From NCBI RefSeq assembly GCF_014217335.1, contig NZ_CP060092.1:4557501-4621500 (forward strand): a DNA stretch of 64,000 nt. The letters are read 5' to 3'. Positions within the stretch are counted from its first letter, which is position 1. Each line of letters begins with the position of its first letter. The translations under genes and the position numbers were made by a program. Below, in pieces: positions 5,391 to 64,000 of the stretch. The notes under the pieces were generated by a model that saw only the letters and a program-made list of their open reading frames with translations, was not told where the DNA came from and made no database searches. Origin of the DNA: Teredinibacter purpureus (GTDB taxonomy: Bacteria > Pseudomonadota > Gammaproteobacteria > Pseudomonadales > Cellvibrionaceae).

Positions 5391-6194
5391 CTACCCGAAC
5401 AGGCTGGGTTCATTTATTTGCGTGACATTGACATATTGCCCTGTCGGGTATGACGATGGGCCAAATTGATTATAGATAGCAACATCGGCCGCATCACGAC
5501 CATAGCCGATGGCTACGTAAGCTCTTTGCTTAGTTGTTTGAGTAGCGTCGAAAGAATACCAGCGCCCACCCACATAGGCTTCAAACCAAGCGTGAAGATC
5601 CATGGGTTCAAGCCCGTTCAAATAACCGACAACCATGCGGGCAGGGATACTTAGGCTGCGGCATAACGCAATGCCCAAATGCGCTAAGTCACGGCACACG
5701 CCCCATTGACGGGCATTGACAGCAAGAGCTGATACTTGAACATCACTGTTACTTTGTTCAAAACTAATGTTGTTGCGTAGCCAGTTTTCAATGGCGGCTA
5801 CTTGGTCGTAGCCTAGACGATGACCTTCAGTAATGGCATGTGCCTGATAGCTGAATTGATCGGACTCACAATAACGGCTGGGTAATAAAAAATTTAAAAT
5901 GTTATCAGGCAGATTTTGTATGTCGACAAATTCAGCGCCGGGTGCTTCATCAATACTACCGGCAATCATGACTTCTGCCTGAGTAAATACTGAGAAGAGC
6001 CCAATGGGTGCTACTAGCCGTTGACAAAGGTTGCCATAGCCATCCGTAAATTCAATGACGGGCACGGTGGGCGATATTTTATACTGCTCACTGGCAATCC
6101 ATTGCTGTGCGCCACTGCGCGGGCGCAACATCAATATAAAGGTTGTTGGTATTTCAATGTCAAAATGTAATTCACAGCTGGTACGTAGCCACAT
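5391..6194 (-). CDS. Transglutaminase-like cysteine protein, short form
   Basis: This is a 267-residue protein of the bacterial transglutaminase/protease fold. The catalytic triad is visible: Cys167 in GVCRDLAH, His201 in DLHAWFEAYV and Asp216 in SFDATQ. An N-terminal beta-rich segment precedes the core. Such proteins cleave or re-form amide bonds and are often encoded with alpha-E and ATP-grasp proteins. No signal peptide is seen, so it is probably cytoplasmic. It is the last gene of the six-gene minus-strand cluster, 55 bp after the previous transglutaminase gene. It stops with TAG and no terminator hairpin follows. Confidence 0.85.
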   Translation of the reverse strand: MWLRTSCELHFDIEIPTTFILMLRPRSGAQQWIASEQYKISPTVPVIEFTDGYGNLCQRLVAPIGLFSVFTQAEVMIAGSIDEAPGAEFVDIQNLPDNILNFLLPSRYCESDQFSYQAHAITEGHRLGYDQVAAIENWLRNNISFEQSNSDVQVSALAVNARQWGVCRDLAHLGIALCRSLSIPARMVVGYLNGLEPMDLHAWFEAYVGGRWYSFDATQTTKQRAYVAIGYGRDAADVAIYNQFGPSSYPTGQYVNVTQINEPSLFG

Positions 6195-6249
6195 GTGAGA
6201 CTCCCTATAAAGCTAAATAAAAAATAGCTAGCGGATGTTGTAATGACAA

Positions 6250-7137
6250 TTAAATTTCAGGCAGGCGACTAACGTCAACCGAAACACTGAGTATTGGGCC
6301 TTTACCACCACCAAAAATAACGCCCTTGACTGGCGTAACATCGAAATAATCACGACCAAATGCCGTGACGATATGCTGGCTATGAGCAGCCGTATTATTG
6401 GTTGGATCAAATTCTGCCCAGCCTTCACTAGGTGAAAAATACGCCATCCAAGCGTGGGTAGCATCGGCTCCTACCAGTTTTTTCTCGCCGGGTTTGGGTA
6501 GCGTTTCAATATAACCTGAAACATATTTTGCTGGTATGCCCATGGCCCTTAAGCAGCCGATTTGCAGGTGAGCAAAATCCTGACAAACACCTCGCTTATG
6601 CTCCAATACATCCCCGAGTGGCGTTGCTATCGTGGTAAATTCGGGGTCGTAGGTAAAATCGTTGAATATGCGGGTGGTCAGTTCGCTGACACAGGCTTTC
6701 AGAGAACGTTTCAGATCAAATGATGGACGAGCATATTCCGCTAGGGCGGTACTCGCTTCTATCATTGGTGAATTGAGCAAAAACTCACGGGCGAGGATAG
6801 TATCATCGTTAAGGGTCATCCTTAGATAGTCTAATACTTCACCATAGGAAGCCCCTAAATCCAAATTCAATTTATGATCATTGTTTTGTATTTGAATATC
6901 ACTTTCTGCAGTAATTGTTAATTCAGTATGCGGCTCTTGTATTTCAAAATGGTAGGCTTGATTGCCAAAGTAATCGGTGCGTTTACGCTTAGTTGCCGGT
7001 TGTGGCGAGACAGAAATGCGACTATTAAGACACTGCTGCCTATCCGTATTTCTTGGGATAACATTAGCGAGGTTGTAGCAGCGTGTTACCCGTTGAGCAT
7101 ATTGATAATGGGTGATGTGTTTAATCCTGAAGCGCAT
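6250..7137 (-). CDS. Transglutaminase-like protein with N-terminal beta domain
   Basis: This 295-residue protein starts MRFRIKHITHYQY, the usual opening of the bacterial transglutaminase N-terminal beta domain. The core triad is Cys185 (GVCQDFAH), His228 (THAWMAYF) and Asp244 (EFDPTN). It ends with the family-typical GRDYFDVTPVKGVIFGGG segment. The start codon shares a base with the stop of the upstream ATP-grasp/alpha-E gene, so translation is coupled. A role in making or breaking amide bonds on the product of the ATP-grasp partner is inferred from family context (the amidoligase systems described by Iyer, Aravind and colleagues). Confidence 0.88.
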   Translation of the reverse strand: MRFRIKHITHYQYAQRVTRCYNLANVIPRNTDRQQCLNSRISVSPQPATKRKRTDYFGNQAYHFEIQEPHTELTITAESDIQIQNNDHKLNLDLGASYGEVLDYLRMTLNDDTILAREFLLNSPMIEASTALAEYARPSFDLKRSLKACVSELTTRIFNDFTYDPEFTTIATPLGDVLEHKRGVCQDFAHLQIGCLRAMGIPAKYVSGYIETLPKPGEKKLVGADATHAWMAYFSPSEGWAEFDPTNNTAAHSQHIVTAFGRDYFDVTPVKGVIFGGGKGPILSVSVDVSRLPEI

Positions 7138-9755
7138 TACTGCTCCCCCAAAAAACTAGTGACTAACTGCTGAGGATCAGTGCGGTGGTCGAAATGTTTG
7201 TCGCTGATTAAACGGTTGAAGTCTTTTAATAGTTTTTCTAATTGTAGTAGCAGGCTCTTTAATTCTTCGCGCTGGTCTGTTTTGGTTTCTAAGAGTTGCG
7301 TTAGTCTAGATAACTTAAGGCTAGTCATGGCTTCCAATAAGGCCCGTTCTTCTTCTTGAAGCTCACCTTGTTTGGCATCTGAATTGGGTAATTGCTGCAA
7401 GTGTTGTTGCAACTGCTCCAATTGAAAAATTAAGGAGCGTGGGTTATTGCTGTCGAGTAACACTAGCTCCAGCCCTAATTCTACACCTCTGCGTTCACGC
7501 CCGCGTTGACGGTAGGTCATGAGTACTTCCATAGACCTCAATAGTGCCGTTAATAAGGTGGACTTATCTGCGCCGGCAGTCACGGGTGTTATCAGGCAAC
7601 GGATGGTATTAATAGTTTGCAGCGCGCGCTCAATACGTTTGCCTAATTCCATAAACCGCCAGCCGACATTCCTGATCATGCTTTCTTGCATCAGCCCAGA
7701 TAAAGCAGCTAACGCAGTAACTAAGGGGTCGAGCGCTTCGTCGGGAGCAGACGTCAAGCCATCTGCTAAGTCGACATCCATTTGCTCAAGCGCATCGCGT
7801 AAATCATTGATAACACGGATGGTGTCACTGGATAACAACGCCTTCGATTCATCGGCACTAGAGAGCATGGAGTTGATGGTTGATTTAATGCTGCCAACGC
7901 GGCCGCTATCTTTAATGATTAGCAATAACTCTTCATCGGGGTTTGCCAGTAATGGCTCAGCGGCACCGAAAAAACCCGGCGTGGTAGCAGTAATTTGAGT
8001 GGCAGTTTCTAGTAAAATTCGTCGTGCAATTTTACCAACAGGGTCTTCGCCGTTAAGCTGAAGGAATACGGTGCGCAAATAACGCAGAGAAACTTCTGCG
8101 CGCTCAGCATAGCGTCCCATCCAGTATAGGTTTTCAACCACTCGGCTGGGTAGGCTAATTAGTGATGAATCAATATGGGTACGTGTTGATTTTTGTGTTA
8201 TTTCAACATCGGCGGTGCGTTCTGGTTCAGTGGCGGTGACCCAGGTATCTTTACTGGGGCTGCCGGACAGCATATTGATTACCGGGTCCTGACTATTAGC
8301 ACTAAATCGAGTTAGGCCACCGGGGAGTACGGTATAAGAACTGTCAGCGGCTACAGAAAACGTGCGTAAAATGGCTGGCCGCGGCTCAAGACGTTCTGAG
8401 TAAAATACGGGGATGGTGGTTTTTTCTAATCGTTCCTGTGCAACATATTGGTAGCGGTTGTTGTGTACGGTGGCCAGTAGCTGGTTAAGTTGTTCGGGAT
8501 TTAAATCGCCACCCCAAACACTCTTAATCCCAACCCCACGATACGCGGGTTTGATAATCAGCTGGCGAATATTGGCTGTTACAAAGTCTAAATCTTGATT
8601 ATCGCCACACCAGTATGTTTTTACTGATGCCAGCCGTGGTTCGCGCCCGAGCAGACACTTACCTATTTGCGGTAGGTATTTAAGCAGTATTGGGTTTTCC
8701 AGTACGCCGGAACCTAGCGGGTTGACCACGACTAAGCGACCGCTGCGCACAACATCTAGCAGGCCGGGCACGCCCAGCTGTGAATTACTGCGTAATTCAA
8801 CGGGGTCACAAAAGGCGTCGTCCACATAACGTAAAATAACGTCAACACGCTTGAGACCATCTAAAGACTTCATCCACAAAAAACCGTTGCGCACAATAAG
8901 GTCGCCGCTTTGGACCAAAGGAAAGCCCAAGTAATTTGCTAGATAAGCATGTTCAAAATACGTTTCATCACGGCTGCCTGGTGTTAATAGTGCAATCAGG
9001 GGTGCTTCATCGGAAGAGGATAGTGAGGACAGTTTAAGACGTAGGCGCTGGTAGAAACTGGCTAAGCGATGAACGTGACTATCACGATATAGGCTGGGAA
9101 AAACGCGAGACATAACTGTACGGTTTTCTAGTACGTAGCCGGCACCGCTGGGAACCTGTGTGCGGTCGGATAAGGCGCACATATTACCATCGCGCATGCG
9201 TAGCATATCTACGCTATGGGTAATGAGTTCGTGCTCTCCCGGTAGTTGGATATTCTGGCAAGCGCGAATAAATCCGCCGTGGCTGAATAGCGCTTCTGGT
9301 GGCAGCGCCCCGTGGCGCAACAAGGTACGTTCGCCATAGATATCACGTAGTATCAAGTTGAATAATTCTGAGCGCTCTAGCAGCCCAGCCTCAATCTGTC
9401 CCCAGTCTTCGCTGCCAATAATGTGGGGGACGGGATCAAGCTCCCAGCTGCTACTAGGGTTGCCGTCTTTGCTAAGGATATTATAGGTTGCGCCATCGTC
9501 CCGTAGGATACGGCGGGCTTTTAGTTGGCGTTCGCGTAATACACCAGGGCCTAGGTCGCGTAAGCTATTGAGCAGATATTGCCACTGCGGTTTAACCGTA
9601 CCATTGTCAGCCCATGCTTCGTCTGACTGTCCATGAGGACGAAAATACTCAAGAGCCTCGACTGATTTGTTCTGGCTTTGAGTTTGGCTTTGAGTCGGCA
9701 TTGGGCTCAATGGCGTTGGCATATCGGAGTTGGGCACGTAGCAACCTGTCAACAA
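7137..9755 (-). CDS. Circularly permuted ATP-grasp fused to alpha-E domain
   Basis: This is an 872-residue fusion. The first ~530 residues are a circularly permuted type-2 ATP-grasp (DUF404/DUF407) with DRTQVPSGAGYVLENR, LLTPGSRDETYFEHAYLA and a KPAYRGVG segment in the nucleotide region. From about residue 540 (SLPSRVVENLYWMGRYAERAE) an all-helical alpha-E domain (DUF403) follows. ATP-grasp ligases of this kind are predicted to form amide bonds through an acyl-phosphate. The annotated N-terminus is low-complexity (PTQSQTQSQ), and translation may begin at a Met 11 codons downstream. It is the fused paralogue of the separate ATP-grasp and alpha-E genes at 13.3-15.7 kb. Confidence 0.88.
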   Translation of the reverse strand: MLTGCYVPNSDMPTPLSPMPTQSQTQSQNKSVEALEYFRPHGQSDEAWADNGTVKPQWQYLLNSLRDLGPGVLRERQLKARRILRDDGATYNILSKDGNPSSSWELDPVPHIIGSEDWGQIEAGLLERSELFNLILRDIYGERTLLRHGALPPEALFSHGGFIRACQNIQLPGEHELITHSVDMLRMRDGNMCALSDRTQVPSGAGYVLENRTVMSRVFPSLYRDSHVHRLASFYQRLRLKLSSLSSSDEAPLIALLTPGSRDETYFEHAYLANYLGFPLVQSGDLIVRNGFLWMKSLDGLKRVDVILRYVDDAFCDPVELRSNSQLGVPGLLDVVRSGRLVVVNPLGSGVLENPILLKYLPQIGKCLLGREPRLASVKTYWCGDNQDLDFVTANIRQLIIKPAYRGVGIKSVWGGDLNPEQLNQLLATVHNNRYQYVAQERLEKTTIPVFYSERLEPRPAILRTFSVAADSSYTVLPGGLTRFSANSQDPVINMLSGSPSKDTWVTATEPERTADVEITQKSTRTHIDSSLISLPSRVVENLYWMGRYAERAEVSLRYLRTVFLQLNGEDPVGKIARRILLETATQITATTPGFFGAAEPLLANPDEELLLIIKDSGRVGSIKSTINSMLSSADESKALLSSDTIRVINDLRDALEQMDVDLADGLTSAPDEALDPLVTALAALSGLMQESMIRNVGWRFMELGKRIERALQTINTIRCLITPVTAGADKSTLLTALLRSMEVLMTYRQRGRERRGVELGLELVLLDSNNPRSLIFQLEQLQQHLQQLPNSDAKQGELQEEERALLEAMTSLKLSRLTQLLETKTDQREELKSLLLQLEKLLKDFNRLISDKHFDHRTDPQQLVTSFLGEQ

Positions 9756-9832
9756 GCGTAATAATTCTGAGACGTATTATATACGCATTCAGTGCTACAT
9801 GACTAAGCTTAAAGCTGCCTCAGTCCTTTATT

Positions 9833-12800
9833 TTATCTGCGAGCAGGGCTGCGCATATCGAGTATGTAGGGGTACTCTCCTGAGGGTTCCTCTGGCGGTA
9901 GTTCCATGGGTCTCGGTGGCTCTTGATTAGGGAAGAACTCGCGCATCGCATCTACTTCAGGGGTCGGTATAAAGGGCCCTTGAGAGTGGCTTAGGGTTTC
10001 AAAACGATTGATACGACGGGATTCCGCCTCATAAGAATTAATGGGGAACGTCTCATAGCTACGCCCGCCTGGGTGGGTTACATGGTAGCTACAGCCACCA
10101 ATGGAGCGGCCATTCCAGGTATCGATTAGGTCAAAATGCAGTGGTACATGCACGCCAATCATCGGATGTAACGCCGACGGTGGCTGCCAAGCACGATAAC
10201 GCACGCCACCGACATACTCAGCATGACAACCAGTATTGCGAAGCGGGACTCGGCGGCCATTACAGGCCAATACATAGCGGCCTTCCGTTAAGCCGGTTGC
10301 TCTGATTTGCAGGCGTTCAACCGAGGAGTCTACGTAACGAGAGGTGCCAAAGCTACTGCTTTCCTCGCCAAGTACATGCCAAGGCTCTACGGCCCAGCGT
10401 AATTCCAGCTCGATATCATCGAGTTGCACGCGCCCATAGTGTGGGAAGCGGAACTCTTCAAAGGGGGCGAGCCATTCAAGTTGGAAGTCGTAGCCGTGCG
10501 CCTGTAGGTCTTCAACCACGAATTTCATATCCTGCCAAAGGTAATGCGGCAACATAAAGCGGTCGTGTAGCTCAGTACCCCAGCGAATTAGCGGCTTTTT
10601 ATAGGGTTCATCCCAGAATCGCGCAACCAGACAGCGAATTAACAACGCTTGTACCAGAGCCATACGGCTGTGGGGGGGCATTTCAAAACCCCGGAATTCA
10701 AGGATACCCAGTCGACCACTGGCACTGTTGGGTGCATAAAGTTTGTCGATACAAAATTCCGAGCGGTGAGTATTACCAGTAATATCGATAAGTAAGTTAC
10801 GTAATAGACGGTCTACTAACCAAGGTTGTGGCACTTCACCCTCGGTCATTTGAGAAAACGCTACTTCCAGTTCGTAGAGCATTTCATCGCGGCCTTCATC
10901 AACGCGTGGAGCCTGGCTGGTAGGGCCGATAAACATACCTGAGAATAGGTAAGACAGGCTGGGATGGTGTTGCCAAAAGGTGATTAAGCTACGCAATAAA
11001 TCCGGCCGCCGTAATAAGGGGCTATCGGTTGGGGTGGCACCACCCAAGGTAATATGGTTGCCACCACCCGTGCCGGTATGACGGCCATCGAGCATAAACT
11101 TTTCGGTAGATAAGCGCGATAAGCGCGCTTCTTCGTAAAGTGATGTGGTGGTTGCGACCAGTTCTTCCCAGTTGTTTGACGGATGCACATTAACTTCGAT
11201 CACCCCGGGGTCTGGAGTGACCAGCAGTTTTTGCATGCGTGGGTCGCGCGGTGGTTCATAGCCTTCAATAATAACGGCTAGCTCTAAGGTGCTCGCAGTT
11301 TTTTCAATAGCGGCCACTAACTCAACATAATCTTCGAGATAATCCAATGGCGGCATAAATATATGCAGGCGACCTTCGCGGGCCTCAATACACATGGCTG
11401 TGCGCACCACTAATTCAGCATCTTCGGGATCAGGAAGTTCTGTTACTTGCGTCTCTTTAGCGTCAGCAAAGCCGATTTCTGAGCGTTTTGGTAAATTGTC
11501 TCGGGGTTCAAAAGGGTCGCGCTGGGGTTTGATTTTGTCTGCCTTACTCCCTATTTCGGGCAATTGGCCCAATGGTAACCGCAGCCCCATGGGAGAATCT
11601 CCTGGAGTCAGGGTAATGCGCTCGCGCTTCATTGGCCAGACACTGCTATTCCAGCTTTTTTGGTCCTCTTCTAGCGGCCAGCCGGTACTGCGGTTCAGTG
11701 GAATAACGATACCTGAGGGCACATCAAAACCGCGTTCAATTAAACGGGCAAGGCGACGCCGGTCCAGTGCGCTATCAAGTTTATGCGCCAGAATATCAAT
11801 ATTCTTGGGTAGGTTTTGCTCTTGCATTAAGTAATACAGGCCGTCTTCGTAGGCAGGCTGGCAGCAGGGCCTGGGAATGACTAGCAAGTCGCACAGGTGG
11901 CGACCAAAACGGGTTGCGTCTTTGATGGTGTAGTCGTAATTTTTGTCGATTCTAGCCAGTAATCTATCATCTTCCCACAGCGGTTCGTTATCTTTACGCC
12001 AGAACACACCTAGTGCCCAACGCGGCACTTCCTCACCAGGATACCATTTGCCTTGCCCGTAATGCAGCAAGCCTTTTGGTGCGTAGCGATCGCGCAGGCG
12101 TAGTAATAGCGTTTTGGCTAAGCTGAGTTTGTCTTCACCGAGTGCCCCGGTATTCCATTGCTCTGACTCCATATCATCAATGGAGACAAAGGTTGGTTCG
12201 CCGCCCATGGTTAGGCGCACATCATTTTGGTCGAATTTAGTGTCAACGAACCTACCGAGCGCCTGTATATGTTGCCACTGTTCTTCACTATAGGGTTTGG
12301 TGACGCGCGGGTCTTCGAGTACGCGCTCTACGGTATTACTGAAATCAAATTCCACTTCGCATTTGTCGGTGGCACCAACAATAGGTGCGGCTGATACTGG
12401 GCTTGGTGTGCAGGCTAAAGGGATATGGCCTTCACTGGCAAATAAACCGGAGGTAGGGTCTAAGCCCACCCAGCCAGCACCGGGGATAAAGACTTCACAC
12501 CATGCATGTAGGTCAGTGAAATCTTCAGCGGCACCAGAAGGTCCGTCTAAGGATTTTTCATCGGGTTTTAGTTGCACTAAGTAGCCCGAGGCAAATCGAG
12601 CGGCAAGCCCAAGGTGGCGTAATAACTGCACCAGTAGCCAGGCAGAGTCACGACAAGAGCCTTTTGCTTTTTGTAAGGTGGCATCAGGCGTTTGAATACC
12701 CGGCTCTAGCCGTACTAAGTATTCGATTTCTTTTTCTACGTACTGATTAATTTCTACTAAGAAATCATTAATCGTGCCTTTTTTGTTTTTTACGCCCATC

Positions 12801-13192
12801 AAAAACTTTTTAAACTTTGGCCCACATTTGAGTTTTTCTAAATAGGGACGCAGCTCTGCTTTAAGTTGCGTAGTATATTTAAAGGGGTAGTTTTCAGCGT
12901 ATTCTTCAACAAAAAAATCGAAGGGGTTAATCGTTGTCATATCGGCGATGACTTCAACGTCCACTTCAAATTCGGTACATTTCTCGGGAAATACTAGCCG
13001 CGCAAGATAGTTACCAAAAGCATCCTGCTGCCAATTAATAAAATGTTGCTCCGGCTTTATTTTCAGGCTGTAGCTGTGAATAGGTGTGCGCGAATGCGGC
13101 GCTGGACGCAACCTCACGGTGTGGGCTGATAAGCTTACTGGGCGATCAAATTTATACGAGGTCCGATGATTAATTGCGACACGGATAGTCAT
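9833..13192 (-). CDS. Transglutaminase-DUF2126 fusion protein
   Basis: This is a 1119-residue protein. The N-terminal third is a transglutaminase core with Cys180 (GSCRDSAW), His229 (DLHAWCEV) and Asp245 (GLDPTSG). The rest is DUF2126, recognisable from MGGEPTFVSIDDME, the GGGNHITLGG motif and a C-terminal SYHVTHPGGRSYE segment. DUF2126 has been proposed to be a glutamine-synthetase-like carboxylate-amine ligase; that comes from family literature and is not visible here. Length is normal for the family. It follows the alpha-E gene after 82 bp in the same operon-like cluster. No membrane segments are seen. Confidence 0.88.
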   Translation of the reverse strand: MTIRVAINHRTSYKFDRPVSLSAHTVRLRPAPHSRTPIHSYSLKIKPEQHFINWQQDAFGNYLARLVFPEKCTEFEVDVEVIADMTTINPFDFFVEEYAENYPFKYTTQLKAELRPYLEKLKCGPKFKKFLMGVKNKKGTINDFLVEINQYVEKEIEYLVRLEPGIQTPDATLQKAKGSCRDSAWLLVQLLRHLGLAARFASGYLVQLKPDEKSLDGPSGAAEDFTDLHAWCEVFIPGAGWVGLDPTSGLFASEGHIPLACTPSPVSAAPIVGATDKCEVEFDFSNTVERVLEDPRVTKPYSEEQWQHIQALGRFVDTKFDQNDVRLTMGGEPTFVSIDDMESEQWNTGALGEDKLSLAKTLLLRLRDRYAPKGLLHYGQGKWYPGEEVPRWALGVFWRKDNEPLWEDDRLLARIDKNYDYTIKDATRFGRHLCDLLVIPRPCCQPAYEDGLYYLMQEQNLPKNIDILAHKLDSALDRRRLARLIERGFDVPSGIVIPLNRSTGWPLEEDQKSWNSSVWPMKRERITLTPGDSPMGLRLPLGQLPEIGSKADKIKPQRDPFEPRDNLPKRSEIGFADAKETQVTELPDPEDAELVVRTAMCIEAREGRLHIFMPPLDYLEDYVELVAAIEKTASTLELAVIIEGYEPPRDPRMQKLLVTPDPGVIEVNVHPSNNWEELVATTTSLYEEARLSRLSTEKFMLDGRHTGTGGGNHITLGGATPTDSPLLRRPDLLRSLITFWQHHPSLSYLFSGMFIGPTSQAPRVDEGRDEMLYELEVAFSQMTEGEVPQPWLVDRLLRNLLIDITGNTHRSEFCIDKLYAPNSASGRLGILEFRGFEMPPHSRMALVQALLIRCLVARFWDEPYKKPLIRWGTELHDRFMLPHYLWQDMKFVVEDLQAHGYDFQLEWLAPFEEFRFPHYGRVQLDDIELELRWAVEPWHVLGEESSSFGTSRYVDSSVERLQIRATGLTEGRYVLACNGRRVPLRNTGCHAEYVGGVRYRAWQPPSALHPMIGVHVPLHFDLIDTWNGRSIGGCSYHVTHPGGRSYETFPINSYEAESRRINRFETLSHSQGPFIPTPEVDAMREFFPNQEPPRPMELPPEEPSGEYPYILDMRSPARR

Positions 13193-13274
13193 ATGCGCTT
13201 ACCGCCTTTGGCTTGAAAAACGTAAGTGATATGCTCATTCGCAATAGCGATAGTGCTGAGTTTACAGGTTGAAA

Positions 13275-14213
13275 TCATTCGGATTCCTTTAGAAACCAGG
13301 TGCTGCCAATTTCGGCACTGAGCTCTATTAGCCCTGCCTGAAATTGATCGATAAAAAGATGTAGCTCTTCTCGTGAGCTTGCCTGTGTGTCAAATCGCGA
13401 GAGCTTTCGGCGTGAACGGTCTAGTAGCTTGAGTGCGCTTTTGTGGTTATTTAAGGGCAGTAATTCTTCGCGCATACCGTTAAGACAAAACTTTACCGAG
13501 CGTGGTAATGAGGCCTCACGAAGAATAAAGTCCACCATAGAATTAGCTTCTACCTGCGGGCCAAATTGCTGGCGATAGGCGCCCATTGCTGACAGGGATT
13601 TTAGCAGGCTTGCCCAGATGAGTGGGTCCACTGTACTGTGGTGACGATCTTCCCCAAGTAAGGCTGCTGCGCCAACATCAATGATTCTTGTGGTCATGTC
13701 CGCGCGCTCAATCAGACAGCCTAGTTTGATAAAGCGATGGGCATGGTTGCGTGGTAATGTGGACATCATCATGCCATTGATGGTTTGGCAACGAGTGATA
13801 ACATTTTCTAAAAATTTGTAACGGTTGCGCCGCCCTACGGATTTCTCGGCGAATTCTTGCGTGTAGAGATACAGCTCATTGACGTATTCCCATGTTTCTT
13901 GAGGCAGTGCATCACGCGTTGTGCGCACATTCTCTCTGGCAGCGCGGATGGCGTTGTAAATGCCTCCGGCGTTATCTTTATCCGCAATGATAAATTTTAA
14001 AACGTTTTGTTCGTTATAAACCCGGTAACGTTCGTTATAAATCGGCTCAGCATCTTGTATTCTGATTAATGTATCCCAACCAGGTTCAGAGCCATCGGGT
14101 ATATCCAGAGTCATATGGGTGTAGGAATGAACCAGGCGTGCAGTGTCCTCCGCACGCTCAAGATAACGCGCCATCCAATATAGTCGTTCAGCAACTCGCG
14201 ATAGCATTGTCAT
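13275..14213 (-). CDS. Stand-alone alpha-E domain protein (DUF403)
   Basis: This is a 312-residue, almost wholly helical protein that begins MLSRVAERLYWMARYLERAEDTARL, the alpha-E signature with repeated Glu and Arg in helix 1. Alpha-E proteins are obligate genomic partners of circularly permuted ATP-grasp enzymes. Their own activity is unknown; they may present the substrate. The start overlaps the ATP-grasp stop by 4 bp (ATGA), so the two are translationally coupled. The same domain is fused to an ATP-grasp in the gene at 7137-9755. Confidence 0.88.
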   Translation of the reverse strand: MTMLSRVAERLYWMARYLERAEDTARLVHSYTHMTLDIPDGSEPGWDTLIRIQDAEPIYNERYRVYNEQNVLKFIIADKDNAGGIYNAIRAARENVRTTRDALPQETWEYVNELYLYTQEFAEKSVGRRNRYKFLENVITRCQTINGMMMSTLPRNHAHRFIKLGCLIERADMTTRIIDVGAAALLGEDRHHSTVDPLIWASLLKSLSAMGAYRQQFGPQVEANSMVDFILREASLPRSVKFCLNGMREELLPLNNHKSALKLLDRSRRKLSRFDTQASSREELHLFIDQFQAGLIELSAEIGSTWFLKESE

Positions 14214-15658
14214 TTTTTTGTCTCCACGATCCAGGTATCTTTACTGCCACCGCCTTGGGAGGAGTTGACGACTAGCGAGCCTTTGACCAAAGCTACACGG
14301 GTTAAACCGCCGGGTGTCACCCAAGTATCTTTACCTTGGAGGATAAAGGGGCGCAAATCCAAATGCCTGGGTTCCACTTTGTCTTCGATATAAGTGGGGG
14401 CAGTGGACAGCGCCAGTGTGGGTTGCCCAATATAATTACGCGGGTTTTCTTCAATCAACTTAGCGAACTCCGCTCTTTTTTTCTCGCTAGCATGGGGACC
14501 GACCATTAGCCCGTAGCCGCCGGATTCGTTAGCGGGTTTAACCACGAGTTTATCTAGGTTGGCAAGTACGTAGTCGCGATCATTTTTGTTCATGCATAGG
14601 TAGGTTTTAACGCTGGCAAGCAGTGGCTTTTCGTTGAGATAGTAGCGAATCATTTCCGGCACATAGGCATAGACAACTTTGTCATCAGCAACACCTGCGC
14701 CGGGCGCATTGGCAATGGCGACATTACCTGCTTTCCATGCGCGCATGATACCGGGAACACCTAAGGTGCTGTCTTTTCGAAAAACTTCCGGGTCGAGAAA
14801 GTCGTCATCAATACGTCGATAAACGACATCAACGCGGATCGGCCCATCAACAGTACGCATATAGACACAGTCGTCATCGCTGACAAATAGGTCGCCGCCC
14901 TCTACTAATTCTACGCCCATACCTTGAGCAAGGTAGGCGTGTTCAAAATAGGCGGAGTTAAAAATACCGGGGGTCAGCACCACAATACAAGGGCGAGTTA
15001 CGTCACGGGGTGATAACGAAGCGAGAGTACTGTGCAGGCGAGATGGATAATCATCTATCGGTAAAATACTGTAGTTTTCAAATAGCTCTGGTAGTACGCG
15101 CTTGGTTATTTCTCGGTTTTCCAGCATGTAGGAAACACCGGAAGGCACGCGTAGATTATCTTCTAGTACATAGAACTTTCCGTTCTTATCTCGCACCAAA
15201 TCAGAGCCACAGATATGAGCCCATGCCCCATGAATGGGCGACACTCCTGTGCACTGAGCTCTATAGTTGCCCGACTCGAGGACAATATCCGCAGGCACAA
15301 TACCATCGGCAAGGATTTTTTGCTCATTATAAATATCATCAATGAACCGATTAAGAGCACGGCTGCGTTGTATTAGGCCACGTTGCACTAGATCCCAATC
15401 CTTGGCTGGGATGACACGGGGAATAATATCGAAGGGCCAAGCTCGATCGATGTTTTGCCCCTCGCTATAGACGGTAAATGAAACCCCCATCTCCTTAATG
15501 GCCAGCTCGGCGGCGCCTCGGCGGGTATGCATTTCCTCTAGCGACAAACCCTGCAGCATATTGATTAGTTGTCGTGCTGCTACCCTAGGTTTGGCTGCAG
15601 GTGTAATTAGTTCGTCGAAAAAATCGCTTGTGGTGTAGGACTTCCAGCTTTTATTCAT
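14210..15658 (-). CDS. Circularly permuted type-2 ATP-grasp protein
   Basis: This is a 482-residue DUF404/DUF407 protein. Motifs include PFDIIPRVIPAKDWDLVQRG, VLEDNLRVPSGVSYMLENRE, TPGIFNSAYFEHAYLA and the Gly-rich KPANESGGYGLMVG expected to close over ATP. Predicted reaction: ATP-dependent amide-bond formation on a peptide or protein substrate that is still unknown. It is the first gene of the minus-strand cluster, so a promoter should lie in 15659-15800. The downstream alpha-E start overlaps its stop. Confidence 0.9.
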   Translation of the reverse strand: MNKSWKSYTTSDFFDELITPAAKPRVAARQLINMLQGLSLEEMHTRRGAAELAIKEMGVSFTVYSEGQNIDRAWPFDIIPRVIPAKDWDLVQRGLIQRSRALNRFIDDIYNEQKILADGIVPADIVLESGNYRAQCTGVSPIHGAWAHICGSDLVRDKNGKFYVLEDNLRVPSGVSYMLENREITKRVLPELFENYSILPIDDYPSRLHSTLASLSPRDVTRPCIVVLTPGIFNSAYFEHAYLAQGMGVELVEGGDLFVSDDDCVYMRTVDGPIRVDVVYRRIDDDFLDPEVFRKDSTLGVPGIMRAWKAGNVAIANAPGAGVADDKVVYAYVPEMIRYYLNEKPLLASVKTYLCMNKNDRDYVLANLDKLVVKPANESGGYGLMVGPHASEKKRAEFAKLIEENPRNYIGQPTLALSTAPTYIEDKVEPRHLDLRPFILQGKDTWVTPGGLTRVALVKGSLVVNSSQGGGSKDTWIVETKK

Positions 15659-15954
15659 TGAGTCGTTTTTCCAGATAGAATATTTTTTATATTAGCAAGC
15701 CTTATGCCAGCTACTGGACTTAGATGGAATAAATACGCTACATCGTAATCTACTATAAATATCTGCTTGCTGGGTAGTTATATAAATATAGAAATATTTA
15801 TATAACTAGTGCCCGTATATATGTGCGCTACGTAATAAGTTATGTAGGGAATTTTAAGGGCCGATTACAGTGTAAATCAGGGGCCGCTGGATATGTATGC
15901 TAATTTTATTATCAAGGTGATGAGTTAGGGTGGGATTACTTAGTACCGGGTTTT

Positions 15955-16911: not shown

Positions 16912-17612
16912 CTAAAAATATTTCTTTAAACGCTCAAAACTAATACGAACCGCCAATCCCAACAGAATGGCAAACGGAAAAATAACAATGACCGGATTCA
17001 CGCTGTACGGCAAACTGATATAAACCACACAAGCAAGCACAAAGGCCGGTGTAATGGACTTTTTGGCAAGATTGAACACATTGCTGCTTTCCCGTCCTCC
17101 TCCCCAGCGCCGACGACGCCTGAAAATAAAAAAATAGGGAGCGAGAAAAATATCAACGCTAAACGAACCACAAAAGTTTGTGCCACGTAATTGGCAGCCT
17201 GCCAATAATCCTTATAGCGGTCAGACAATCCGTGAATCCACTTCTGAATAGCGTCCATGCTACCCATCGATACCTTGGATATGGGTGTTCCGGTACTTAG
17301 CGTAGTTAACCATGATTGTTGTGCTATCCAGTTTACCGCTGTCGCTGTCGCGCTAATGACTTGGCCTTTGATAACCAGTGATTCGTTCTTCAATGACTGA
17401 TTCAGATAGCGCTGATCCATAGCGAGTACGGTTTTAGCGTGATTCGAACCTTGTTCTGCCCAAAACCGGTTGATGCCAATCCACTCGATGATAATTGAAA
17501 GCAATAAACTAATGATCAACCATGCAGCTAATTGCACTGTAGCCGATAATAATTTGCCGATTAAGCCCGGTTCTTTTCTTCTGGGTACGGGGGTTTGTTG
17601 CTGTTTTGGCAT
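16912..17612 (-). pseudogene. ICE membrane protein, PFL_4697/TIGR03747 type, frameshifted
   Basis: The N-terminal frame (from 17612) gives a membrane protein with transmembrane stretches near residues 30-45 and 150-165, ending LPIFLFSGVVGAGEEDG. The natural C-terminus, RRWGGGRESSNVFNLAKKS to ISFERLKKYF at 16912, is in another frame. The frame change falls near 17095-17115. Family members have about ten residues between the hydrophobic segment and the RRWGGGRESS motif that are missing here, so a small out-of-frame deletion is likely. Taken alone, the first frame would end at 16998 with 204 residues and an unrelated tail. This inner-membrane protein normally follows TraD, as here. It is probably non-functional. 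Confidence 0.75.
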
Positions 17613-17654
17613 GGGCAGGCTTATCCCTTTCGATCATTAACTATCAGCCATTAA

Positions 17655-19724
17655 CTACCGGCGATGATAGCTCGGCCAATCCATCACCGAGCTGTAGTTC
17701 TGCCGCATTTGACACAACATGCTGCCCAAATCATCGGGCAGTTCCTGATCATCAACTTTGGAGGGCATGGGGATACGGATTTTCCACAGCTCGCTGCCTC
17801 TGAGTAATACAAAGGCCTGGCCTTTGGGCAGTGCAACAATATCAGCCGGTGAGATCATCGGCACTCGGCTGACGCTGATACGATCTTCATTGTTCGAGGT
17901 AAAACCAAAGCTACCATTGGCCTCGGTGCCATCAATCACACCGGACACTGCCATAATTTCACTGACACTGACTTCGGGTAATTGCTTGGTAAACATTTCA
18001 CAGGTCGAAATTTCTTTCACGCCCATAATAATCATGGTGCCGATATTGCCCGCGATCTGCCCCGCTTTCGCTTCACTGCCGAGTTCGGCAATGGGGTCAC
18101 TCCAGGTTTGGGTATAAAGATTCAGTTCATATCCCGCACCACCGCTTTTATTAATCAGGGTTTTAAATTGCGGCCCAATTAAATCGGAAAATTCATCCCC
18201 GTGAATCACCACAGTGGGGGCTTTTTGTTTTTTGGACGGCTGACCATTCGCCCCTTCTTTGCCAATCCCGTGTTTGTAAATATGGCCTGCTAGGCTGGTT
18301 AAATCACTGAACATGGAGGCACCCACCGCACTGGCCACTTCCGCATCGGTCAACGCATCCAGGCCGACATAAACCACGGCTTCTGTACGAATAGCCTCCG
18401 CCCATTCCAGTTGTGGTCGGGAATCTTCCGTATCATGAACATCAGGGGCTAAAATTGCGTTGATTTTACCGGTGGTGAGTTTTTCTAAAAACGGCTTGGC
18501 GGCAATGGTGATCTTCTGAAAATATTCACGGTCGTAGCGAAACACCGAGACAAGCCCTTCCAATATTTGATCTAACTCGCCCAGAGTTTTCAGGTATCTC
18601 ACCAAGGCAATGGCATCGGGGTCTTTGCCCTGTTCGGCGCGGGGCAGTGATTTAACATTCATGGCATCACGCACCGCCTCTAACTCACCCTCCCAGTCTT
18701 CACTGCCATGCTCGTTTAACCAGTGCCTTCCATACTGGATCAACAAGGGATCAATATCACTCAGATAGCGGCGAATTTTGGGGAAGTCAGGTTTAATGTC
18801 CAGTGCATCCAAGACGACAGAAATAATATTGACAAACAGCCAGATAAATTCCTTAAAAGCCGCTGCATCCCCCTCTGACGGTAATTGACTGGCAATACGG
18901 CTAGCGACCTCAGTAATACGGGAAAATGAACCAATAGCGTTGTAGCGGGCGCTTAGTTCTGGGTAGCCCAAGTGAAAGACAATCAGTTTGCGGCCTGCTC
19001 GTTGAGTTTCGATATAAATACGCTTTAAATAATCCGCATCGCCTTTAGGGTCGAGCACGATCACGCAGTTATTACCCCGTCGGATATCTTGGGTGGTTAG
19101 AATTTCCGCCAACCGTGTTTTACCGTGGCGGGTACGGGCAACCACCACCATATGCCCTACCCGATCACTCAGCGGCATTACCGCATTGGTTTCCGCCCCG
19201 ATCCCGACACCGTGTATCACGGCATCGCCCCCCACCGCCGGTGGTGGACGAACGGGATTCAGGGCGGAATCTGTCGCCGTCCATTGCATTAACTTTTTTA
19301 GACCCAGAGTATGCTCCCAATCCAATTCCTTACGGCGTATCCACTGCGACAAGGCACTCACTTGCAGGTAACGCTCAGCCCGTTTATCACGCGCTGCATA
19401 CAGCCGTTCCGTGTGGGTTTGATTCCATCGAAAACCACGACCTAAAAATAGTACCGATTGACTGATGGGTATTTTAGTCGCCGATAACACATAACGGGGC
19501 GTACGTTTAAGATGGCGCTGATAGCGTAATACTCGCCACGCCTGACAGCCTCGCCATAACCCCAAACCACTCAGACAAGCGGCGCTGAACAGCGCAACGG
19601 TGGGTGTCATCATCATGATGTGTGGTGCTTTCAATACCACTCCAGCAGAACACAGTGCCACCGCTGCCGAAGCCAGCTCGACCGGAGGCCGTAACAGCAC
19701 CTCAACTTCGTAGCGATCCGTCAT
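17655..19724 (-). CDS. traD: Conjugative coupling ATPase TraD, SXT/PFGI type
   Basis: This is a 689-residue type IV coupling protein of the TIGR03743 group. Two hydrophobic segments lie near the N-terminus (about residues 18-35 and 40-58). Walker A is ARTRHGKT with Lys202, and a Walker-B-like strand NNCVIVLDPKGD follows. It is expected to be an inner-membrane hexamer that hands relaxosome DNA to the secretion channel. I place the start at 19724, where ATGA overlaps the stop of the upstream gene; an ATG three codons earlier is possible. The gene looks intact, unlike the TIGR03747 gene 42 bp downstream. Confidence 0.9.
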   Translation of the reverse strand: MTDRYEVEVLLRPPVELASAAVALCSAGVVLKAPHIMMMTPTVALFSAACLSGLGLWRGCQAWRVLRYQRHLKRTPRYVLSATKIPISQSVLFLGRGFRWNQTHTERLYAARDKRAERYLQVSALSQWIRRKELDWEHTLGLKKLMQWTATDSALNPVRPPPAVGGDAVIHGVGIGAETNAVMPLSDRVGHMVVVARTRHGKTRLAEILTTQDIRRGNNCVIVLDPKGDADYLKRIYIETQRAGRKLIVFHLGYPELSARYNAIGSFSRITEVASRIASQLPSEGDAAAFKEFIWLFVNIISVVLDALDIKPDFPKIRRYLSDIDPLLIQYGRHWLNEHGSEDWEGELEAVRDAMNVKSLPRAEQGKDPDAIALVRYLKTLGELDQILEGLVSVFRYDREYFQKITIAAKPFLEKLTTGKINAILAPDVHDTEDSRPQLEWAEAIRTEAVVYVGLDALTDAEVASAVGASMFSDLTSLAGHIYKHGIGKEGANGQPSKKQKAPTVVIHGDEFSDLIGPQFKTLINKSGGAGYELNLYTQTWSDPIAELGSEAKAGQIAGNIGTMIIMGVKEISTCEMFTKQLPEVSVSEIMAVSGVIDGTEANGSFGFTSNNEDRISVSRVPMISPADIVALPKGQAFVLLRGSELWKIRIPMPSKVDDQELPDDLGSMLCQMRQNYSSVMDWPSYHRR

Positions 19725-20251
19725 TGCTCCCACCCCTGATTGGACAACAGTATGGGGTAATGTGTTAAGCCCAACCCAGCCGCAAAACCCTCTGCCGAGG
19801 CAGGCACTAAACGTAAGCCTTGAGCGAGAATAAGCATTGCTTCAATATCCTTTTTGTCCTTAGCCTGAATCAATAAACCAACCGCACCTAATTCCATCAA
19901 TTGCTCACGCCTTTCGATTAACCATTTTTTTGAGCGCGAATCAGAACCCACTAGAAAGAGTGGCTGTTGCAAATAACGTAATGCTTTGGGGCTGGCCGTT
20001 ACTACCCCCGGCGACAGGGAAGGTGTTGTGATTGGCAAAACATAGGCCGATAATTTTTGTTTGTTTAAGAGGACGGATTGGCGCGATTGTTTAGTGTTTT
20101 CCTGCTCAAACCGTTGGGGTAAATACCCGCTGATGGGTTGGGTATTACCCGAATCATAAATAACGGTTAAGGCTTCGCTGACAGGAATAATCGTCAGTAA
20201 CATGGCAATTATGAATAGTTGATTTAATAAACCCTGGCTTACGTTTTTCAT
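19721..20251 (-). CDS. ICE protein, PFL_4695/TIGR03765 type
   Basis: This is a 176-residue exported protein with a signal peptide (about residues 1-25, ending PVSEALT). The mature part contains TVIYDSGNTQPISGYL, SPKALRYLQQPLFLVGSDSRS and LGLTHYPILLSNQGWEQ at the end, which I recognise from the TIGR03765 family of ICE envelope proteins, function unknown. I place the start at 20251 (MKNVSQG), one base overlapping the lytic transglycosylase stop (TGATG); an in-frame ATG 18 bases upstream is less likely. Its stop overlaps traD. Confidence 0.8.
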   Translation of the reverse strand: MKNVSQGLLNQLFIIAMLLTIIPVSEALTVIYDSGNTQPISGYLPQRFEQENTKQSRQSVLLNKQKLSAYVLPITTPSLSPGVVTASPKALRYLQQPLFLVGSDSRSKKWLIERREQLMELGAVGLLIQAKDKKDIEAMLILAQGLRLVPASAEGFAAGLGLTHYPILLSNQGWEQ

Positions 20252-20787
20252 CAAAACGCCACCGTCCAATTTTTCCTGACTTTGGCGCGATAGTACTTGG
20301 CGCTTTCAAGGGATTGTGGGTCTTGCCCCGGATCATGATAACGCCCGACTGCTTGCCACCAGTCTTGTGTGTTTTCAAATTGCTCTCGTAAAATGGCAGC
20401 TCCCGCTTTTAGATTTTGCAACGGTATCAGGGCTTGTTCTGCATCCGTGAACCGCTGCTGCTGCCAACGCCAACTGATTTGCATTAGTCCAATGTCAATA
20501 GAGCGTTGTTGTTGAATGGCTTGATGGATATGCCGTAACGCTTCGCTTTTCGACTGACAATAAACGCTACGCCCTTCAATATTTAATGCCCAGGGCCAAG
20601 GCAATGCTGATGCGTCATAACGCCGCCCACTTTCAGTTAAGGCAACTGCATAAAGAATATCAACCGGCACCCGATAGGCTTTCGCCACAACATGGTAGGC
20701 AACAGGTAGTGATTCCAATGCCGCTGCGTTAACGGGTTGCATGACAACTAATCCGGCCAGGCATTGATAAAGACAGTAAGATTTCAT
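20251..20787 (-). CDS. Conjugation-associated lytic transglycosylase (SLT domain)
   Basis: This is a 178-residue exported enzyme with a hydrophobic N-terminus (LYQCLAGLVVMQPVNAAA). The SLT motifs are present: ILYAVALTESGRR with the likely catalytic Glu, and SIDIGLMQISWRW as the downstream substrate motif. It should cut peptidoglycan glycan strands to let the transfer apparatus cross the wall. It overlaps the upstream TIGR03759 gene by 4 bp and touches the next gene by 1 bp. Confidence 0.87.
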   Translation of the reverse strand: MKSYCLYQCLAGLVVMQPVNAAALESLPVAYHVVAKAYRVPVDILYAVALTESGRRYDASALPWPWALNIEGRSVYCQSKSEALRHIHQAIQQQRSIDIGLMQISWRWQQQRFTDAEQALIPLQNLKAGAAILREQFENTQDWWQAVGRYHDPGQDPQSLESAKYYRAKVRKNWTVAF

Positions 20788-21623
20788 AAACCTAAATCCT
20801 CCGTTTTTAGTTGAAAAAACTGCTGATTGCGCTTTAAAAAAACAGGAACCGTTGCATGATTGACGTTTGAGGAGCGGCTATTCAAACGATGGTATAAACC
20901 TTCATCACGGTTTAGCGTCAGTGTTTGTTTATTTAGCCATTCGGTTTGTATGCCCTGTTCTTTTGCCCACCCGCTTACCGTTGCATCATCCTTGGCATCG
21001 CGTACATAAATGTCGACACCGCTGTTTTTTAATCCTGACAATAGGCTCATCAACCGGCGAATGGTGGCAAAACACTCCTTGCAAGAATCAGCGACAAACA
21101 CCAGCAAACGATCACCCTCAACAAAGCGCCGTTGCGCTAAATTTTTAGCCTCCTTGAAAGCAGATTTTTGTTGTTGGTGTGCGTAGTAAGGAGCCAAAAG
21201 TCGTTGGTCCAATAGATCCGCATTGGGGTATAAACGATTAAAGGCCGCACGGTAGGCTGTTTGGAAACGCAGCACTCGCTCGGTGAGTTCAAATTCCTGC
21301 TGTGCGTAACGCTCGGCATAGCGTTGCGACTGTTGTTGGGTGTCAGCGAACATACCCAAGGCCATTAAAGGATCAATCGTAGGGTTCCACTTGCCCAATG
21401 GCCCACGGATTAAATCGAGGTATCGTTCGTACTCGCTAATATCCAATGACCACCGCGTCGCGTCGTGCTGAATAAGCTGTGTTTGCGATACTGGTGTTTC
21501 TCGAACAGGCGTTTGTGGGGATGATGCTTGGCCCTCAGCCGTTTCAGCCAGCCCTGTATTCGTTAGCACAACAGCCCCGATTAAGAGAACCATAACATTC
21601 ACACATCGATTGATACGGTTCAT
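20784..21623 (-). CDS. ICE protein, PFL_4693/TIGR03759 type
   Basis: This is a 279-residue exported protein (signal peptide about residues 1-26, MVLLIGAVVLTNTGLAE). A conserved DISEYERYLDLIRGPLGKW block and a late thioredoxin-like segment VFVADSCKEC with a CxxC pair are visible, consistent with the TIGR03759 family. A periplasmic redox or assembly role for the transfer apparatus is inferred from the CxxC. It is translationally coupled to both PilL upstream and the transglycosylase downstream through 4-bp overlaps. Confidence 0.82.
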   Translation of the reverse strand: MNRINRCVNVMVLLIGAVVLTNTGLAETAEGQASSPQTPVRETPVSQTQLIQHDATRWSLDISEYERYLDLIRGPLGKWNPTIDPLMALGMFADTQQQSQRYAERYAQQEFELTERVLRFQTAYRAAFNRLYPNADLLDQRLLAPYYAHQQQKSAFKEAKNLAQRRFVEGDRLLVFVADSCKECFATIRRLMSLLSGLKNSGVDIYVRDAKDDATVSGWAKEQGIQTEWLNKQTLTLNRDEGLYHRLNSRSSNVNHATVPVFLKRNQQFFQLKTEDLGL

Positions 21624-22372
21624 GGCGTTACCTTTGTCTCACGCCATAAGCGGTGTTGTTCGTCCACTATTCGATTGGCCGCACTGATGGACAAAATGGC
21701 AGGGTTTTTAGGTGTTAGATTCAACATCACACCTTTTTTTAGGGCATTCATGTTGTTGAGAAAAGCATTGGGATTGGCCTGAAATACTTGCACCATGCGC
21801 TGATCCAATGTCATCCCCTTCAAGCCAGCTACCGTGACAATGCTACTGAGACTTTCCCCTTTATTTACCGGCCCATAGTGGCTCACTGTTTCTTTTTTCT
21901 GCGTCCAATTTTTTACAGCTTTTTTAATCTCTGCCTCGCTAACAAACTGCTTGTAGTCTTTTTTCAAGGCATAGGAAACCGTTCGAGTGACCGGATTAAT
22001 CGTCACCTCAAAACTTTCGCCACCTAGCAGCTTAAGCGCATCAAGGAGTGTGATCGGATCAAGCGTTCGGTGAGGGTCAGGCAACGCCAACGACAATAAA
22101 AGCGCTTGCTCAGGCAGTGCCTCTTCCGTGTTGAGCAATCGTAAACCGTAGGGGTGGAGCAGATACGCCAGCGCCTCCCCTATGGTTTCTAGCTGTTTGG
22201 GGATATGAATTGAGATAATAGATTCAAGTAAATTGCGCTGTGCTGGCGTTGCGCCCACCTGCACCGACACATAGCGGCTCTCTGGTATCACCGAGCTGAT
22301 TTCCTCTGCCAATGAGAGTGATGAGACACCCAACACCATCAGCGTGGTTAGGGTTAAAGGTTTTCGTTTCAT
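21620..22372 (-). CDS. pilL: PilL N-terminal-type protein of the ICE (TIGR03748)
   Basis: This is a 250-residue exported protein. Residues 1-20 form a signal peptide (MKRKPLTLTTLMVLGVSSLS). The middle part, LETIGEALAYLLHPYGLRLL and TLLDALKLLGGESFEVTINP, is a secretin-N-like domain typical of PilL of PFGI-1 elements. A C-terminal FimV/LysM-like linker (LDQRMVQVFQANPNAF) follows. It likely acts in the envelope with the conjugative pilus. I start at 22372, because the seven residues before it would precede the signal peptide. It is the first gene of the central transfer operon. Confidence 0.82.
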   Translation of the reverse strand: MKRKPLTLTTLMVLGVSSLSLAEEISSVIPESRYVSVQVGATPAQRNLLESIISIHIPKQLETIGEALAYLLHPYGLRLLNTEEALPEQALLLSLALPDPHRTLDPITLLDALKLLGGESFEVTINPVTRTVSYALKKDYKQFVSEAEIKKAVKNWTQKKETVSHYGPVNKGESLSSIVTVAGLKGMTLDQRMVQVFQANPNAFLNNMNALKKGVMLNLTPKNPAILSISAANRIVDEQHRLWRETKVTP

Positions 22373-22479
22373 GCTGTTCGCCCACCGAATCAATAATCAG
22401 AATCGACAGGCTAACGGAACCGAATTGGTTTATGAGGTAACAATGGTTCGGACGACAAAGACCGTTAAGTGATAGTTTT

Positions 22480-60242: not shown

Positions 60243-61416
<1,174 letters not shown>

Positions 61417-62868: not shown

Positions 62869-64000
62869 TTAAAGCTCTACTAACCCTTTCAGCCTCATCC
62901 ACCATGCCTTATAAGCCTGCTCCTGTTCTGGCAGGTACTCATAATGATCATATACCCTCCAAGAACCAGGTAATTTATGCCCGAGCATAATTTCAGCGAT
63001 ATGCGGCTCTGTCAGGGATGAAAAATTGGTGCGAGCCGTTTTTCGTAAGTCATGAACAGACCAATGCGGTATATCATAAGCCTTGTTCTTACGCAGCCAT
63101 TGCATGATGTTATACGGAAGCTGCACTGGCGCACCAACACCCATAGGTTCATTCGTGCCATTATTGTTGAACAGGTAATCCCCTTTACCGCTCAGCGCTA
63201 TAGCTTCCTCAATGAGTTCCTTCACCTCTGGAATGATTGGACGTGATAAGGGCTTGCCGGAAGCTTTTCCGAGCTTGTGGTTTTCTGGTGGCACCATCCA
63301 GATCATATTTTTAAAATCAAAATGATCTTTACGGCTTAATCTTAACTCTCCGTTCCGGCAGCCAAATACTAAACAGAGCTTTAAATACAGCTTGTTTTTA
63401 GTAGACATACGGGACTCATTAATTGCCAACCAGACATATTTAATTTCATCATCAGATAACGACCTGTCCCCTACACCTTTTTTAAGCTGCAAATCCTCCC
63501 TAGCATTGATACCTGTTAAGACACTCTCAGGAATAAGTTTACGCCTCACCGCCCATTTAAGCATTTGCTTACCGTTGGTTAAGATACGGTCAGCAATGGA
63601 AGGGCGCTTTTCAGCATGCTCTTCCAAGATCGCAAGCCACTGGTGAAGGGTTATTTTCTCGACAGGTAAATCACCAATAACAGGCAGAACATATAATTCA
63701 AAACTGCGTTTTATCTCGTGATGCATTTTCTTATTCTTCTCACAGTAGCTTTCATACCACTGTCGAAAAATAGATTCTAATGAGCCCGCATTGATGATCG
63801 CCTGCTTTTCGAGCTTCCTAACGATTTTTGGATTATGCCCTTGCTCAAGCTCCTTTCGCAGCCGGTCATTTTCATTCCTCGCCTCTTTGAGAGATATTTT
63901 AGGATAGGAACCAAGATCAAGGCGGCAATGTTTATTGTCATAGCGATAGCGCATTTGAAAGGTTATCTTGCCGAGAGGAGACACCCGAATACCCATATTA
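62869..64000 (-). CDS. P4-type tyrosine integrase, N-terminus beyond window
   Basis: 377 residues are visible. MGIRVSPLGKITFQMRYRYD is the usual sequence about 25-35 residues into P4 integrases, and the codon before it is not a stop, so the true start lies beyond the right edge. The arm-binding domain ends LGSYPKISLKEARNE. The catalytic domain has CLVFGCRNGELRLSRKDHFD (Arg), HDLRKTARTNF (His-x-x-Arg) and MLGHKLPGSWRVYDHYEY (His and Tyr). It should integrate an island, often at a tRNA gene; none is in the window. Confidence 0.9.
   Translation of the reverse strand, partial: NMGIRVSPLGKITFQMRYRYDNKHCRLDLGSYPKISLKEARNENDRLRKELEQGHNPKIVRKLEKQAIINAGSLESIFRQWYESYCEKNKKMHHEIKRSFELYVLPVIGDLPVEKITLHQWLAILEEHAEKRPSIADRILTNGKQMLKWAVRRKLIPESVLTGINAREDLQLKKGVGDRSLSDDEIKYVWLAINESRMSTKNKLYLKLCLVFGCRNGELRLSRKDHFDFKNMIWMVPPENHKLGKASGKPLSRPIIPEVKELIEEAIALSGKGDYLFNNNGTNEPMGVGAPVQLPYNIMQWLRKNKAYDIPHWSVHDLRKTARTNFSSLTEPHIAEIMLGHKLPGSWRVYDHYEYLPEQEQAYKAWWMRLKGLVEL

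Follow-up and report, generated by a model that had tools for sequence, protein, structure and literature searches.

What might a run of ATP-grasp, alpha-E and transglutaminase genes be doing among the genes of an integrative and conjugative element (ICE)? The question is raised by a 64,000-nt stretch of Teredinibacter purpureus DNA (contig NZ_CP060092.1, positions 4,557,501 to 4,621,500; "the window" below), in which an earlier note, made from the letters alone, had pointed out six such genes. The answer favoured here, with moderate confidence, is that they encode a cytosolic set of amide-bond-making and amide-bond-breaking enzymes, expressed as a sigma54/NtrC operon induced by nitrogen limitation, gained horizontally, and now lying in a conjugation-dead ICE remnant within an island in prfC. 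The cluster itself is of a known kind. The useful lead is the link to nitrogen, which, like the glutamine-synthetase-like fold predicted for its DUF2126 domain, was absent from the first reading and is added here.

Composition and kind of the cluster

All six open reading frames (ORFs; named in Table 1) are intact on the minus strand at 5391-15658. The ORF listing and a Pfam search of the window proteins agree with the genes, positions and domains given previously. Scores for the ligase, alpha-E, DUF2126 and transglutaminase-core domains are far over the Pfam cut-offs, with the N-terminal transglutaminase domain of TG1 just under its own, and GRASP matches a solved relative (3n6x, E 7e-160). 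The three intact Cys-His-Asp triads that had suggested active enzymes were located in TG1 (C167/H201/D216), TG2 (C185/H228/D244) and TG3 (C180/H229/D245), the last being invariant in 28 of 28 aligned rows. Two parallel sets had been described, and both are present, but because all six genes run in a single direction with intergenic gaps of at most 82 bases they look like one operon. No long, strongly hydrophobic stretch is evident in the six proteins (largest 19-residue mean 1.66, in TG1), so they are probably cytosolic. PF14403 was matched nowhere else in the genome.

Amidoligase clusters of ATP-grasp, alpha-E and transglutaminase genes, with or without DUF2126 and including a four-gene Anbu operon, were reportedly described by Iyer et al. 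in 2009. By its domains the present cluster belongs to that kind: it has two circularly permuted ATP-grasp ligases, two alpha-E domains, three Cys-His-Asp transglutaminase folds and, as a predicted fold, a GS/GCS-like (glutamine synthetase/glutamylcysteine synthetase-like) COOH-NH2 ligase in DUF2126. The families are identical, and the kinship with ligation and peptide-modification clusters proposed earlier is upheld. Where it differs is in that no Anbu was found in its own genome, in the attachment of TG1 as a sixth gene, and in sitting inside an ICE remnant. Given the predicted glutamine-synthetase-like fold of DUF2126, the set would count three ligases, three Cys-His-Asp enzymes and two alpha-E domains. 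DUF2126 has about 5-14% identity to glutamine synthetase, gamma-glutamylmethylamide synthetase and YbdK, and unlike them it is fused to a transglutaminase and has a predicted activity. Glutathionylspermidine synthetase/amidase and trypanothione synthetase-amidase, in contrast to the window cluster, have no alpha-E or DUF2126, and their amidase is of another family (CHAP), fused to the ligase. The substrate had been called undescribed, and we agree; PMC6376114 calls the role of such genes unconfirmed.

A sigma54-like site and the link to nitrogen

A sigma54 (-24/-12) promoter-like site, with one mismatch to the consensus, ends 36 bases ahead of the GRASP start. With its GG and GC fixed, three matches occur in the window, this site being one; when the 280 bases upstream of GRASP were shuffled base by base 5000 times, 0.06% of the shuffles yielded such a site. 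Similar sites are enriched ahead of the clusters of relatives: 37 of 43 TG3 heads from Pseudomonas and 14 of 50 group or gene heads from outside it have one, against 26 of 1126 control ORFs (L032, a gammaproteobacterium, being counted here as Pseudomonas, and heads lacking 350 upstream bases being dropped). With operon-head filters applied, the counts were 8 of 25 for GRASP heads and 28 of 43 for TG3 heads, the controls giving 15 of 420. Locus L120, which repeats L007, was dropped from both counts.

The nitrogen link of relatives is already published; what is new here is that promoter sites extend it to this cluster. The NtrC/sigma54 targets of Burkholderia cenocepacia include a four-gene relative with an ATP-grasp (DUF404/407), an alpha-E (DUF403), a transglutaminase and a large transglutaminase gene (PMC5491218). 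In Pseudomonas putida, PP_2685 and PP_2688 are higher with nitrate than with ammonium (PMC8050072) and PP2685-2687 go up under nitrogen limitation (PMC3325844); Anbu induction in nitrogen-limited P. putida is also cited, but with no change under other conditions (PMC5666114). Marine metagenomes associate these domains with urea-metabolism domains (PMC3597751), and a Bradyrhizobium RpoN table has a sigma54 site ahead of an ATP-grasp gene of unstated subfamily (PMC13207237). On an Acidithiobacillus caldus megaplasmid (L135, NZ_CP005987.1), a relative of the cluster and an Anbu-like gene lie near amt, P-II, glnA, ntrC, glnL and an amidase gene, a neighborhood that is not general across 100 related stretches. 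The T. purpureus genome itself encodes NtrC.

Several observations weigh against nitrogen control and use. By a plain pattern count the window has five one-mismatch sigma54 matches where 6.67 are expected, which is chance level. No site with at most one mismatch precedes any of the six copies from the host's own genus, an argument against control being conserved there, and none precedes 36 of the 50 non-Pseudomonas heads; moreover, the heads in the larger comparison (37 of 43 and 14 of 50) were not filtered as the 420 filtered-set controls were. The published P. putida genes belong to the Anbu type, and Anbu was not found here. Confidence in the DUF2126 model is moderate (mean pLDDT, the predicted local distance difference test, 66.5), and Foldseek alone ranked glutamine synthetases weakly for it (E 0.07 and worse). 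Finally, a purpose in nitrogen use is something we infer from regulation.

In the favoured reading the operon is probably transcribed from the sigma54 promoter under NtrC when nitrogen is limiting. The two ATP-grasp ligases and the DUF2126 ligase would activate a carboxylate, glutamyl or peptidyl, as an acyl phosphate for coupling to an amine, and the three transglutaminase-fold enzymes may transfer or hydrolyze such amides, a pairing analogous to the ligase and papain-like amidase of glutathionylspermidine synthetase/amidase. The alpha-E domain, fused to one of the ligases, could hold the partner or substrate. The most likely use would be to capture, conjugate or recycle scarce nitrogen in amide form. 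A bolder proposal, which we regard as distinctly doubtful, is that the six genes form a transferable nitrogen-limitation unit, complete in itself and with a sigma54 promoter of its own, whose three different ligases and three transglutaminase-fold enzymes together produce and recycle a so far undescribed amide, glutamyl or peptidyl. If so, gaining the island would give a host a new nitrogen-storage or nitrogen-salvage compound. The sigma54 sites and published NtrC data indicate the condition under which to seek a product, and the glutamine-synthetase-like fold the chemistry to test.

Anbu and the tagging proposal

Another role, fairly unlikely in our estimate, is peptide or protein tagging, in which the ligases would assemble a peptide and couple it to proteins, its processing or removal falling to the transglutaminases. 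Iyer et al. reportedly proposed such a system for clusters with the same domains, and 11 of 100 related stretches have an Anbu-like gene close to the cluster, as does the A. caldus record. The absence of Anbu remarked on for the window holds across the genome, however: the sole PF00227 match is a 179-aa ORF that we take to be HslV-like, beside an ORF that is presumably HslU-like. No tag precursor was seen either, though no search was aimed at one. The tagging proposal is cited in PMC5666114 and PMC6376114, the latter of which also reports no specific interaction among the Yersinia operon proteins and no peptidase activity for Anbu, results that argue against tagging.

Distribution in relatives and horizontal origin

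DUF2126 was found in 24 of 57 other relatives, and in six of seven from the genus. Stretches of 16-20 kb were taken from 18 of the 24: 17 have GRASP, alpha-E and TG3 together, 11 of these also GEfus and TG2, and one of the 11 (L120, identical to L007) TG1 as well. The ICE proteins of the window had no match in these stretches or in the best 80 of 326 confirmed loci, from which gene order was compared (by tblastn; ORF calling loses genes under long opposite-strand ORFs). By this evidence relatives carry the cluster outside such an ICE context. Presence of the same six genes in the ordinary chromosome of all close relatives, free of mobile DNA, had been named as what would speak against mobile use, and this is largely what was found, DUF2126 being present in those 24 genomes and the stretches from 18 of them lacking the window's ICE proteins.

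Relatives commonly have five of the genes in the order GRASP-alpha-E-TG3-GEfus-TG2. All six genes stand in the window order in L003, L004, L007 and the betaproteobacterial L047 (Massilia), among the best 80 of the 326 loci; L190 has the six in a different order. TG1 matches were found in 41 of 293 genomes of the order, 19 of which were examined as stretches. By ORF calling, which missed TG1 itself in L187, one of the 19 (L190) has a ligase, alpha-E and TG2 beside TG1, and six have a second, TG3-like transglutaminase adjoining; elsewhere, TG1 is often separate from the cluster. In four Zhongshania loci (L008, L009, L010 and L011), TG3 occurs without the other five genes in the stretch examined.

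Both the TG3 tree (38 rows) and the GEfus tree (27 rows) place the window copy as the sister of L007 (100/99 each time), and the pair falls inside a seven-row clade of Halieaceae/Porticoccus type (100/100 in each). The copies from the genus form a separate clade (95/94 with six rows for TG3, 100/99 with three rows for GEfus). This placement, apart from the genus, indicates that the window copy was acquired horizontally.

Related genes also occur on plasmids. Of 72,556 plasmid records, 249 match TG3, 25 over at least 80% of its length, and 23 of these 25 are longer than 400 kb. On an Enterobacter roggenkampii IncFII plasmid (L134, NZ_CP116251.1, 17603-26794), a five-gene relative lies amid insertion sequences. 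TraD (TIGR03754) was over cut-off in 6 of 58 genomes, and on the same contig as DUF2126 only in T. purpureus, although these are draft genomes and linkage could be wider. The mobile use suggested earlier is weakened, yet transfer is real: the copy in the island was horizontally acquired and a relative is plasmid-borne, although the element has lost a working conjugation module of its own. As the island shows, the genes can be transferred together and retained in the absence of Anbu.

The ICE remnant

Genes of PFGI-1/clc type, recognized by NCBIfam, flank the cluster on both sides as the earlier note had it, TIGR03756/TIGR03757 on one and the genes from TIGR03747 to PilL on the other (Table 1). 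Between TIGR03747 and TIGR03757 the window carries the six genes together with a Fic gene and a broken IS91-type transposase. The same interval in four related ICEs (L193-L196) spans about 8-12 kb, with a run of genes that includes one ORF of 899-1052 aa, identified by size and place as the VirB4 ATPase; L197 and L198, two stretches from one genome, have no TIGR03757 match in range. By this comparison the cluster occupies the place where related ICEs keep their secretion core. PFGI-1/clc-type ICEs share the TIGR037xx genes and TraD with the window, but unlike a functional one, the T. purpureus genome has no match at E 0.001 to TIGR03744 (VirB4), TIGR03752 or the relaxase TIGR03760, so self-driven transfer of the element is improbable. 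What had been called an ICE is, on these matches, a remnant within a larger island.

Table 1. Coordinates of the cluster and other mapped features of the window.
Feature	Position	Strand	Evidence
ICE genes TIGR03756 and TIGR03757	1246..2719	-	NCBIfam, over cut-off
Fic-domain protein, 513 aa, beside TIGR03757	2920-4461	+	PADLOC candidate PDC-S24, E 8e-196
TG1, transglutaminase, 267 aa	5391..6194	-	Pfam E 4.6e-22; triad
TG2, transglutaminase, 295 aa	6250..7137	-	Pfam E 1.2e-17; triad
GEfus, ATP-grasp/alpha-E fusion, 872 aa	7137..9755	-	Pfam E 6e-137 (ATP-grasp), 5.6e-66 (alpha-E)
TG3, transglutaminase + DUF2126, 1119 aa	9833..13192	-	DUF2126 1315 bits; transglutaminase core E 2.8e-18
Alpha-E protein, 312 aa	13275..14213	-	Pfam E 5.9e-82
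GRASP, circularly permuted ATP-grasp ligase, 482 aa	14210..15658	-	CP_ATPgrasp_2, Pfam E 2.8e-166
Sigma54 (-24/-12) promoter-like site	15695..15709	-	One mismatch to consensus
Piece of broken IS91-type transposase, between cluster and TIGR03747	16103..16336	-	PF14319 E 3.4e-10
ICE genes TIGR03747 (below cut-off), TraD TIGR03754, TIGR03765, lytic-transglycosylase-like, TIGR03759, PilL	16998..22393	-	NCBIfam
Tyrosine integrase at prfC junction	62869..63996	-	Pfam integrase domains

With the surrounding ICE broken and the neighboring transposase wrecked, the cluster might itself be decaying cargo with no function in this host; this is improbable, since the six frames and three triads are intact and the promoter-like site is retained. 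The defensive use proposed earlier, with the six genes guarding cell or island against phages or loss, is hardly credible: the cluster does sit among ICE genes beside a Fic gene matching a candidate defense family, but none of the six proteins matches any PADLOC model, relatives lie outside such elements, and the promoter class points to nitrogen, a role that is better supported.

In L194 a T5orf172/DUF4041 protein (11332-12954) lies between the VirB4-sized ORF and TIGR03757, on the same side as the Fic gene of the window, and this position is likely a cargo spot. A short stretch at 4540-4700 on the plus strand, read by eye, resembles the beginning of an abortive-infection antitoxin-type protein that soon breaks off.

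The island in prfC and its other cargo

The ICE remnant lies in an island of about 66 kb inserted in prfC, which is to the left of the window, with rimI to the right. The native 5' end of prfC adjoins the integrase and a second 5' end sits on the prfC body; the island junctions share a core, found at C1:4555515-4555537 and again about 66.3 kb away at 4621777-4621799. SXT-type elements are known to integrate at the 5' end of prfC; the island has this insertion in common with them, its integrase being recognized by Pfam domains. A second tyrosine-recombinase-like ORF lies inside the island at 23071-23703 on the minus strand (Integrase_1, E 1.1e-10), and a transposase with an rve domain (E 9e-29) near the integrase end at 60251-61120, also on the minus strand. 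Between them, 25469-59808 looks like cargo for ion, glutamate and osmotic stress, encoding Omp85, TamB, GAF/PEP-utilizer, MATCAP peptidase, OmpA, RimK, AstE/AspA-like and Na/H exchanger proteins, along with a glutamate-synthase domain, aconitase, a fumarase-like lyase, CorA, MscS, TrkA, MgtE and a Usp protein.
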